64,000 nt of DNA from Pelagibacteraceae bacterium AG-426-G02. GTDB lineage: Bacteria; Pseudomonadota; Alphaproteobacteria; Pelagibacterales; Pelagibacteraceae. Both the position numbers and the translations under genes were made by a program. Under the pieces are notes generated by a model that had not been told where the DNA came from, did not search any database, and saw nothing but the letters and a program-made list of their open reading frames with translations. The first letter of the stretch is position 1. Every line of letters starts with the position of its first letter. The stretch is taken from the NCBI GenBank assembly GCA_003213155.1, contig QCNQ01000001.1:1-64000 (forward strand), written 5' to 3'. Shown here one piece after another: positions 57,697 through 59,468 of the stretch.

Positions 57697-58650
57697 TTAT
57701 AATTTTACTTTATTCAAAGCATTATTTTTAAAGATATTTGCTTCTTTTATGTATCTTCTCACCATTTGTGTTGTTTTGTGACCAGTCATTTTCATAATAC
57801 TCCGTTCATCAGCACCAGCTTCTGCAGCAACAGTTGCAAAACCCGATCTTAAACTATGACCTGCAAAATTTTTATTATCGATTCCTGCTAAATTTAAATA
57901 ATTTTTCATTAATAAAACTACTGATTGGTCGGTTAATCTTTTTTCTGTTAATGATGACCCTTTAGAAAATCTTCTAAAAATAGGTCCAGATTTAATTTTA
58001 GAAATTTCTAGCCACTTTTTAAGATTGACTACAGGGCAATAGTTTTCGTTAGTAAAGTAGGGTAGCCCTTTTAGCATTCCTTCACCAAATTGATCTGTTT
58101 TTGATCTTCTGATAGTGATTTTAAGACCTTCAGGAACGAATTCCAAGTCTTCATAATCAATTGAAATAAGTTCAGTTCGTCTAAATCCGCCTCCGAAGCC
58201 GACTAAGATAATAGACTTATCTCTATACTTCTTTAAATCCTCGATTTTTTGTTCATTTATTACATTAATTATTGATTTTAAATGATTGATTAATATGGGT
58301 TTTTTACCTTTTTGAATGCTTCCTTTAACTCTTCTTATTCCCATTAAATTTTCAACAATTATAGGATGTTTGGTGTCTAGATAATGCCCTTTAAGTTTAT
58401 GAACCATGCTAATTGATACCAAGCGTCTTCTTAAAGTACTTATTTTGGAATTTTTAGAAAGGTGCGTAAGGTATAATGAAACTATTTTAGGCTCTGAAGG
58501 TAAAGAATTTAGACCATGCTTAGCACAAAAAGCTCCAAAATCCTTAAAGTCTGATTTATAGGCTCTTAGAGTGTTATTTGACTTTGAACTTCTGAGGTTA
58601 TTCAAAGTTGCCTCATGAAGAGATTTTAAATCAGTTGTCAGTTCATTCAT
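57697..58650 (-). CDS. Tyrosine site-specific recombinase (integrase/Xer family)
   Basis: A 317 aa DNA strand-exchange enzyme. The N-terminal SAM-like core-binding domain (about 1-100: NTLRAYKSDFKDFGAFCAKH) precedes the catalytic domain with arginine in GGFRRTELISIDYEDL, lysine in IRRSKTDQFGEG, HSLRSGFATVAAEAGADERS, the second H in MTGHKTTQMVRR, and nucleophile Y300. All six catalytic positions are present. The tail resembles phage/plasmid integrases more than XerC or XerD. A 33-bp inverted repeat lies 4 bases upstream of its start. Confidence 0.92.
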   Translation of the reverse strand: MNELTTDLKSLHEATLNNLRSSKSNNTLRAYKSDFKDFGAFCAKHGLNSLPSEPKIVSLYLTHLSKNSKISTLRRRLVSISMVHKLKGHYLDTKHPIIVENLMGIRRVKGSIQKGKKPILINHLKSIINVINEQKIEDLKKYRDKSIILVGFGGGFRRTELISIDYEDLEFVPEGLKITIRRSKTDQFGEGMLKGLPYFTNENYCPVVNLKKWLEISKIKSGPIFRRFSKGSSLTEKRLTDQSVVLLMKNYLNLAGIDNKNFAGHSLRSGFATVAAEAGADERSIMKMTGHKTTQMVRRYIKEANIFKNNALNKVKL

Positions 58651-58654
58651 AAAA

Positions 58655-58687
58655 TTACTATTGATAACAATTAATTATCACTAGTAA
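58655..58687. repeat. 33-bp inverted repeat, probable recombinase core site or operator
   Basis: Left arm TTACTATTGATAA (58655-58667), spacer CAATTAA (58668-58674), right arm TTATCACTAGTAA (58675-58687). The arms are inverted copies that differ at one of 13 positions. Two arms of 11-13 bp around a 6-8 bp spacer is the format of tyrosine-recombinase crossover sites (dif, loxP), and the inner ATAA...TTAT ends recall dif. It begins 4 bases from the recombinase start codon, so it could also be an operator. Function is inferred. Confidence 0.6.
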
Positions 58688-58731
58688 TATATCAAGTGAT
58701 TTTTAATGTCAATAGTTTAAATATAAAAATT

Positions 58732-58908
58732 ATGGGTTCAATTGATGGAGAAATTCCTGCTGTATGGTTTTTAATTACATCTGTAGGATTTATTATTTTA
58801 AGTTCAATTCAGTATAAAAATCATGGCAAAAGCATAGAAACTATTTTTTTATCTATCTTGGCAATCTTATTTTTAATCAGCTATTTTATCTTAGTTTTCA
58901 AAGCTTAA
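58732..58908 (+). CDS. Small two-helix membrane protein, function unknown
   Basis: Not recognised. A 58 aa product from ATG 58732 (MGSIDGEIPAVWFLITSVGF); a GTG at 58696 in frame would add 12 residues. It has two hydrophobic segments (about residues 9-22 and 36-57) joined by a polar loop QYKNHGKSIE, so an inner-membrane hairpin is likely. It lies between the recombinase inverted repeat and the folded non-coding stretch. Small size makes the coding call moderate only. Confidence 0.5.
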   Translation: MGSIDGEIPAVWFLITSVGFIILSSIQYKNHGKSIETIFLSILAILFLISYFILVFKA

Positions 58909-59000
58909 TTTATCCCCAATATTCACAGGAATTGCTATAAATTTTCAGAATCAATTAAAAGGTGATACAGCTTCAAAATCATATCTGTTAACATGTAAAT

Positions 59001-59190
59001 GAATTAAGGGGCAACCCTTAACTGGCCAATTGGGCAAAAGCCGAGAGGTACAAATCCAAGGGGCAGAAAGTTCTGCAAAGCATCGCTGAACATGCAGAAC
59101 GGGAGGCATGGCGGTAGCGCATCAACGACGTGCCAAAACAACTGTTCTTTGCACCTTTAAAAGTGCAAGGAAACAGGGGTTTCTGAGGAA
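59001..59190 (+). ncRNA. Candidate structured RNA, family not recognised
   Basis: By hand count 94 of 190 bases are G or C, against roughly a quarter to a third in neighbouring sequence, with no good reading frame. Hairpins seen: TTAAGGG/CCCTTAA with a GCAA tetraloop (59004-59021); GTTCTGCA/TGCAGAAC (59070-59077 with 59093-59100); GGCATG/CGTGCC (59105-59110 with 59129-59134) enclosing GCG/CGC; and a 13-bp stem with one bulge (59142-59154 with 59163-59176). A GNRA loop favours the plus strand. I found no match to tmRNA, RNase P, SRP, 6S or common riboswitches. It ends at the alkyltransferase ribosome-binding site, so it may be a leader. Confidence 0.6.
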
Positions 59191-59192
59191 AA

Positions 59193-59468
59193 ATGCATCT
59201 TAAAGGCACTAAATTTCAATTAAAAGTCTGGAAATACCTTAAAACTATACCAAAAGGTAAAATAAGAACATATAAACAAGTTGCTGCTGCTATAAACAGC
59301 CCTAAATCAGCTAGAGCTGTTGCTAATGCTTGTGCTAAAAACCCATATGCCCCAAAAATACCTTGTCATAGAGTGATTAGATCTGATGGAGCTCTTGGAG
59401 GTTACTCAGGTAGAGGTGGAATCAAGCAAAAGCTCAAATTACTAAGATCTGAAAAAGTAGCTATTTAG
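59193..59468 (+). CDS. Single-domain methylated-DNA--cysteine alkyltransferase
   Basis: O6-alkylguanine repair protein reduced to the catalytic C-terminal domain (91 aa). It has the DNA-recognition helix region TYKQVAAAINSPKSARAVANA and the active-site motif IPCHRVI with acceptor C58, so it is of the alkyltransferase type and not a tryptophan-containing ATL. The Ada-like N-terminal domain is missing, and the upstream frame is closed by TGA at 59184, so it is not a cut-off longer gene. GAGGA lies 3 bases before the ATG. Confidence 0.9.
   Translation: MHLKGTKFQLKVWKYLKTIPKGKIRTYKQVAAAINSPKSARAVANACAKNPYAPKIPCHRVIRSDGALGGYSGRGGIKQKLKLLRSEKVAI

Follow-up and report, generated by a model that had tools for sequence, protein, structure and literature searches.

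A GC-rich, apparently noncoding stretch upstream of an alkyltransferase gene in Pelagibacteraceae bacterium AG-426-G02 raises the question of whether it specifies a structured RNA and, if so, whether that RNA stands alone, serves the adjacent gene, or is left over from a mobile element. The stretch lies in a window of 64,000 nucleotides, which is the whole of the DNA that was analyzed. The initial annotation counted 94 G/C bases among the 190 at positions 59001 to 59190. That count is exact, compared with a window mean of 28.5%, and the interval is among the most GC-rich of its length in the window: just 8 of 63,811 sliding 190-nt segments hold at least 94 G/C, and all of them start within 58999 to 59010. 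The hairpins reported for the interval, including one with a GNRA cap and one of 13 bp with a single bulge, are all present, and there are five when the terminator is counted. The predicted minimum free energy of 58997 to 59192 was -66.5 kcal/mol, whereas the mean for shuffled sequences was -49.43 (sd 4.04), giving a z score of -4.23, and 0 of 200 shuffles folded as low.

An Rfam scan answered the question of identity. The RF02035 model matched over its full length (positions 1 to 141 of 141), and on this evidence the GC-rich stretch is a copy of IMES-2, a structured RNA of SAR11 that was catalogued before. A confident Rfam match removes the novelty that had been proposed for the RNA. The proposal that it is a structured RNA holds, given the folding energy, the full-length match, and the compensatory changes described below. 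The elements of the RNA are as follows.

58997 to 59136, + strand: IMES-2 RNA core (Rfam RF02035, 144.8 bits versus a gathering score of 54.7, E 1.3e-37)
59004 to 59021, + strand: P1 hairpin with a GCAA (GNRA) loop (Rfam structure; 99.5% of cells paired)
59022 to 59066, + strand: P2 bulged hairpin with a GAGA tip, also GNRA (Rfam structure)
59070 to 59100, + strand: P3 hairpin with a 15-nt loop (both sides changed in 8 of 8 pairs)
59080 to 59088, + strand: 5' side of the pseudoknot, in the P3 loop (covariation; 13 loop combinations in 51 sequences)
59105 to 59134, + strand: P4 hairpin with loop GGUAGCGC... (both sides changed in 5 of 9 pairs)
59115 to 59122, + strand: 3' side of the pseudoknot, in the P4 loop (covariation; the same 13 combinations in 51 sequences)
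59142 to 59184, + strand: intrinsic terminator, hairpin 59142 to 59176 with tail GGGGTTTC (conserved in the tails of relatives)

The model places the 5' edge at 58997, 4 bases ahead of the start first given. The earlier failure to fit the stretch to tmRNA, RNase P, SRP RNA, or 6S RNA was borne out: at the locus there was no Rfam match to the first three, IMES-2 alone reached its gathering score, and 6S RNA (RF00013) was found neither in a scan of the whole window nor in a permissive local scan. A conserved reading frame, which would have spoken against an RNA, was also looked for. Each frame was open through the IMES-2 core in at most 1 of 34 sequences, and a coding reading was rejected on that ground.

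The IMES motifs reportedly come from one 2009 Nature paper, and another 2009 Nature paper is said to concern small RNAs of the ocean. Among the papers that a literature search listed, none was seen to treat IMES-2 or RF02035 RNAs, and the word "IMES" is absent from PMC2864571 and PMC5069720. The SAR11 motifs that Meyer et al. 2009 described (PMC2704228, as far as the available portion of that paper goes) are GC-rich intergenic structured RNAs, found by the same reasoning from base composition as in the initial annotation. Most of those motifs precede a fixed gene, whereas IMES-2 does not, and the same portion of the paper holds no description of IMES-2. IMES-2 is an orphan RNA of an already known family.

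The secondary structure is supported by compensatory change among SAR11 relatives, the test that the initial annotation had suggested. The alignments were made from representatives (53 of 151) that a similarity cutoff had selected, with divergent members added, and 52, 34, and 51 sequences were aligned. The larger sets of 149, 153, and 166 sequences used below retain near-identical members, so counts made on them are not independent events. Three loci were dropped before counting, L121 (a chance match in Clostridia), L182 (a chance match), and L098 (a broken RNA). In L098, IMES-2 passes in mid-P3 into tyrosine recombinase coding sequence; this junction probably arose as a chimera during amplification of a single-cell genome, the alternative being an insertion.

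Across the 48 pairs of the Rfam helices and the proposed pseudoknot, most of which are already in the Rfam structure, 93.0% of cells were paired in 52 sequences and 26 of the 48 pairs had changes on both sides. None of 500 shuffles was as high on any of five measures, and sliding the registers of the same alignment brought the paired cells down to 32.0 to 41.1%. The P1 tetraloop was GCAA in 45, GUGA in 2, GUAA in 2, and GCGA in 1 of the 50 sequences counted; the 51st (L303, whose 5' end is cut) has GCAA too, by eye. In P2, changes on both sides affected 6 of 11 pairs in the lower part and 3 of 4 in the tip, whose loop in relatives, by reading rather than counting, is mostly GAGA; a few have GCAA, and genus g285 has UUCG. 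A mismatch between purines is conserved in P4, as G-A in 50 of the 52 sequences and as A-G in the other 2.

The copy examined here shares with the RF02035 description the full-length covariance-model match, the four hairpins, and the conserved loops. It differs in that the Rfam structure line has the P3 and P4 loops unpaired and the model stops before the terminator. Covariance models cannot hold pseudoknots. We propose that the P3 loop GUAGCGCUA pairs with the P4 loop UAGCGC-A-UAC. In 51 sequences the core of this pairing was 93.8% paired, 33 cells were changed on both sides versus 8.7 in shuffles, and the covariation score was reached by 0 of 500 shuffles. Two of the five measures, double-changed pairs (250 of 500) and further pair types (269 of 500), were not above shuffles because both sides vary in only 3 of the 6 pairs. 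The outer pair was unpaired in 12 and the inner pair in 7 of the 51 sequences, and in an extended form of nine pairs the outer three are less regular.

A motif shared by the two loops could mimic such pairing, because UAGCGCUA is palindromic. However, this artifact is disfavored because the loops of divergent members vary but stay complementary through nonpalindromic swaps (GAACUA/UAGUUC, GUUCUA/UAGAAC, GUGCUA/UAGCAC, GCACU(U)/(U)AGUGC, and UCGCUG/UAGCGA). Covariation thus supports the view that the large P3 and P4 loops form a kissing pseudoknot. IMES-2 is probably a compact folded RNA, because its two big loops would pair with each other and P1 carries a GNRA loop.

The 13-bp hairpin with a single bulge, CTGTTCTTTGCAC...GTGCAAGGAAACAG, is identified as the terminator hairpin from its conservation. 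A stem of at least 8 pairs was found in 148 of 149 tails of relatives, and in 142 of these an 8-mer after it held 5 or more T (a cruder earlier script gave 129 T-rich tails); the sequence after the stem is mostly GGGTTTTTT or similar. The copy in the window, with 4 T, is one of the 6 that have the stem but fewer T, and a general terminator scan did not flag it. Its tail is also that of a near relative, L018, and the eroded T-tail may make termination weaker in these two.

Three further elements lie ahead of the RNA.

58910 to 58927, + strand: pair of DnaA-box-like sequences, TTATCCCCA and ATATTCACA (retained ahead of IMES-2 in all three gene contexts)
58952 to 58967, + strand: conserved box CAAYNANNARGTGATA, an imperfect inverted repeat (ATCA/TCAC...GTGAT) and probable regulator site (conservation)
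58986 to 58994, + strand: possible extended -10 element TGTTAACAT (pattern TGnTAnnnT; upstream alignment)

The first two of these elements are supported by counts across relatives. The upstream pair, which resembles tandem DnaA boxes, recurs in all three contexts as TTATCC[C/A]CA followed by a second ATTnACA. The pattern TTATCCNCA, which was derived from the very sequences counted, occurred with no more than 1 mismatch upstream of the RNA in 130 of 166 regions versus a mean of 11.4 in shuffles, and the other 36 needed 2 mismatches. Two tandem boxes within 1 mismatch were present in 19 of 53 upstream regions versus 0.03 in shuffles. The exact TTATNCACA is rare in sampled DNA from three of these genomes (28 times in 848 kb), yet 11 of the 53 representatives have it upstream of the RNA. 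Box 1 in the genus of the window is mostly TTATCCCCA, one position off the usual DnaA box. We infer that DnaA is perhaps the protein that binds the pair.

With at most 1 mismatch, the inverted-repeat box was found in 128 of the 166 upstream regions (0.05 on average in shuffles), and in all 152 regions where it has no more than 2 mismatches it starts 43 to 46 nt before the RNA. In L116 the box is a full inverted repeat (TCACCTATTAGGTGA). The distance from the DnaA-like pair to this second box is mostly 31 or 40 to 42 bases, spacings that are roughly one helical turn apart. The possibility that the CAAC...GTGATA box is a general promoter element was rejected: a search for CAAYNAWWARGTGATA across 10 genomes gave 7 matches, of which 4 were this box upstream of IMES-2 and the other 3 lay, by eye, in coding or unrelated DNA. 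The candidate -10 element is weak, and its distance of about 21 nt from the box is not the standard spacing of a sigma-70 promoter. A simple sigma-70 promoter scan of the region gave 3 sites versus 4.0 in shuffles, nothing above chance.

The genes and sites that flank the RNA in the window are the following.

57697 to 58650, - strand: tyrosine recombinase, a probable single Xer-type enzyme (PF00589, E 3.2e-19)
58657 to 58685, + strand: dif-like palindrome of 29 bp, ACTATTGATAACAATTAATTATCACTAGT (genomes of relatives, GC skew)
59193 to 59468, + strand: alkyltransferase-like protein of 91 aa with DNA-binding domain PF01035 (E 2.6e-33; TIGR00589, 103.4 bits versus a cutoff of 46.4)

A small membrane-protein-like gene (MGSIDGEIPAVWF...) without a Pfam match is also present at 58696 to 58908 on the + strand, and in relatives similar frames are flanked by the palindrome on one side and by IMES-2 or the alkyltransferase gene on the other. 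The alkyltransferase is a single-domain protein, PF01035 being its sole Pfam match, and it retains what we take to be the PCHR motif of O6-methylguanine methyltransferases.

The recombinase is the sole PF00589 match in its own assembly, which is 83% complete. One PF00589 protein was found in 7 of 10 genomes and two in the other three. The closest NCBIfam models (XerD, XerA, XerC, and XerS) all scored far below cutoff. At up to 3 mismatches the palindrome was found in 19 of 25 genomes, with one site in each except for an extra 3-mismatch site in G661 and in G490, and a reversed control pattern gave 4 matches in the same 25 genomes. No site at this threshold was found in G880, G162, G806, G818, G037, and G038. 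Among 109 loci with the recombinase upstream of IMES-2, the palindrome was present within 1 mismatch in 85. Because the remaining 24 have no copy closer than 4 mismatches, the palindrome is either not universal or outside the stretch examined. In the 148-kb contig that carries the window, cumulative GC skew peaks in the 56- to 60-kb bin, which holds the palindrome. Judged by this skew, the locus lies at the replication terminus, and an origin of replication at the locus was rejected on the same basis. The plain reading is a probable single-recombinase dif/Xer system like XerS/difSL or XerH/difH. In the available part of Carnoy and Roten 2009 (PMC2731167), Pelagibacter ubique is stated to have no dif/Xer system, and the single-recombinase dif-like site proposed here would bear on that statement.

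The neighborhoods of IMES-2 in relatives indicate that the RNA is independent of the genes around it. Among 153 loci, 116 lie by the recombinase, alkyltransferase, and transporter group, 34 follow an mnmA-like gene, 1 has labels of both, and 2 (genus g5) are elsewhere; the neighbor names in the mnmA and g5 contexts come from reading translations, not from database matches. A membrane-protein gene is convergent downstream in most loci of the mnmA context. Since the upstream boxes and the terminator travel with the RNA through three unrelated neighborhoods, IMES-2 is, on this comparative evidence, a free-standing RNA gene, the first of the options raised in the initial annotation.

IMES-2 is confined to SAR11 in these searches and is absent from many SAR11 genomes, an absence supported by two different models. 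In the genus of the window, RF02035 was found in 198 of 399 genomes under strict filters, leaving 201 without a match, and among genomes of the genus with completeness of 90% or more and contamination of 5% or less it was found in 28 of 57. IMES-2 is therefore not essential in this genus, because about half of the genomes are without a match. A model built here, R1, matched 206 of 297 genomes of the SAR11 family, in 12 of 14 genera; 3 of the 206 are chance matches, which leaves 203. One genome that carries the RNA, G843, is a single contig. A scan of 385 genomes of the class recovered only the genome of the window and two others of the same family, and IMES-2 was found in 0 of 24 genomes of another family of the order. 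Among 80 contigs listed for a P1 pattern, 79 belonged to Pelagibacteraceae, Pelagibacterales, or Pelagibacter and 1 was a chance match in Clostridia, in line with a marine origin.

A divergent IMES-2 in the Rfam-negative genomes was considered and rejected: across 22 of them in the genus, most of which are incomplete and three of which (G012, G271, and G361) are single contigs, the best R1 match had an E value of 0.1. Four weak R1 matches (L311 to L314), in three other genomes of the genus that are the chance matches among the 206, were by reading coding DNA, three at one junction of ribosomal-protein and polymerase genes and one elsewhere. The family nearly always has a single copy of IMES-2, although G893 has two matches. 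SAR11 bacteria are thought to recombine much. In a recombinase gene tree of 43 rows, 12 of them without the RNA, the pattern of absence needs 8 changes, at least 4 of which are forced by well supported branches. Read only as the tree of a single gene, it suggests that IMES-2 was lost or exchanged more than once.

Taken with the elements described above, the reading to which we assign a probability of roughly 0.62 is that IMES-2 has its own gene, running from promoter to terminator, and yields an RNA of about 180 to 190 nt with four hairpins and a kissing contact that acts in trans via a protein. Transcription would most likely start near 58997 from the extended -10 promoter. Promoter activity would be set by a regulator on the CAAC...GTGATA box and perhaps also by DnaA at the two boxes upstream. 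Transcription would end at the hairpin at 59142 to 59176, and the RNA would fold as four hairpins with the large loops of P3 and P4 paired. From the sequence we infer both the promoter and the protein partner, as well as any function: the RNA would act as a protein-binding structured RNA rather than as an antisense RNA. Action through a protein is favored because the loops that would otherwise be free for targets are used inside the molecule.

The main rival is an antisense small RNA whose exposed conserved loops would pair with mRNAs and so control them, in the manner of Hfq-dependent small RNAs. The conserved upstream region, the U-tailed terminator in most relatives, the size of about 190 nt, and the dispensability of the RNA would all suit such a role. 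However, the two large conserved loops covary with each other, and P1 and P2 are closed by tetraloops. Typical small RNAs consist of a seed and a terminator, and a long conserved structured core is unlike them. We therefore consider antisense action unlikely. A 6S-like RNA that would mimic an open promoter, bind RNA polymerase, and replace a missing 6S RNA would be free-standing and of similar length (the RF00013 model has 187 positions), and it would fit the finding of RF00013 in 0 of 20 genomes of the order by a search that found it in 5 of 14 control genomes. This very unlikely role is at odds with the IMES-2-negative genomes, 10 of the 20, which are also without a 6S match, and with an architecture of four hairpins and a kissing contact that is unlike one long stem with a central bubble. 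6S RNA has an architecture different from that of IMES-2. As a separate observation, the same counts indicate that SAR11 bacteria either have no 6S RNA or have a very divergent one.

A cis-regulatory leader of the alkyltransferase-like gene, as the initial annotation had also suggested, is largely refuted by context and highly improbable. That gene is near the RNA in 77 of 116 recombinase-context loci (an undercount, since frames overlapping the RNA were dropped), and the eroded terminator tail in the window makes read-through possible. Nevertheless, in most relatives the terminator precedes the gene, and in G025 (L066) a different small gene sits between the two. The fixed position upstream of one gene that marks a leader or riboswitch is replaced by three contexts, two of which do not have the alkyltransferase gene close by, and in the 34 loci of the mnmA neighborhood the next gene is on the opposite strand in about 30. 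Moreover, 7 of 27 genomes of the genus that bear the alkyltransferase gene have it without the RNA (G006, G012, G019, G022, G024, G028, and G062). On this comparison IMES-2 does not serve the neighboring gene. It is scarcely credible that the conserved entity is a DNA site at the terminus that serves proteins of replication or segregation, with the RNA fold incidental. The locus in the window is indeed at the GC-skew peak and 312 bases from the dif-like palindrome, but G-U pairs, GNRA loops, and covariation are features of RNA. In addition, the RNA and the palindrome lie far apart in G820 (at C1:250,340 and C1:68,150, respectively), and 0 of 35 loci with mnmA-context genes show the palindrome in the stretch examined, although that context keeps the boxes. 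The last suggestion of the initial annotation, a remnant of a mobile ribozyme or element, found no support and has as little to commend it. Three genomic contexts and patchy presence would be expected of such an element; however, each of the 21 genomes that were positive in one scan had a single match, 0 viral contigs had the exact 24-base pattern, blastn gave no phage match, and no element ends or associated protein were seen, whereas the unit from promoter to terminator is conserved.

A replication-coupled regulatory RNA is a more specific version of events, and one that we regard as doubtful. Its promoter would be read by DnaA, at tandem boxes phased about 31 or 40 to 42 bases from the site of a second regulator. 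The compact kissing-loop RNA would then be produced in time with the cell cycle and act on a protein, and this would take place in the most abundant heterotrophs of the ocean.

Few bacterial groups on Earth are as abundant as SAR11. The kissing pseudoknot, the upstream DnaA-box-like sites, the inverted-repeat box, and the probable promoter are worth adding to what is known of the IMES-2 family. With an outline of the gene (its start region, end, and pseudoknot), its independence from neighbors, and its presence or absence across SAR11 in hand, a direct test of IMES-2 would now be possible.
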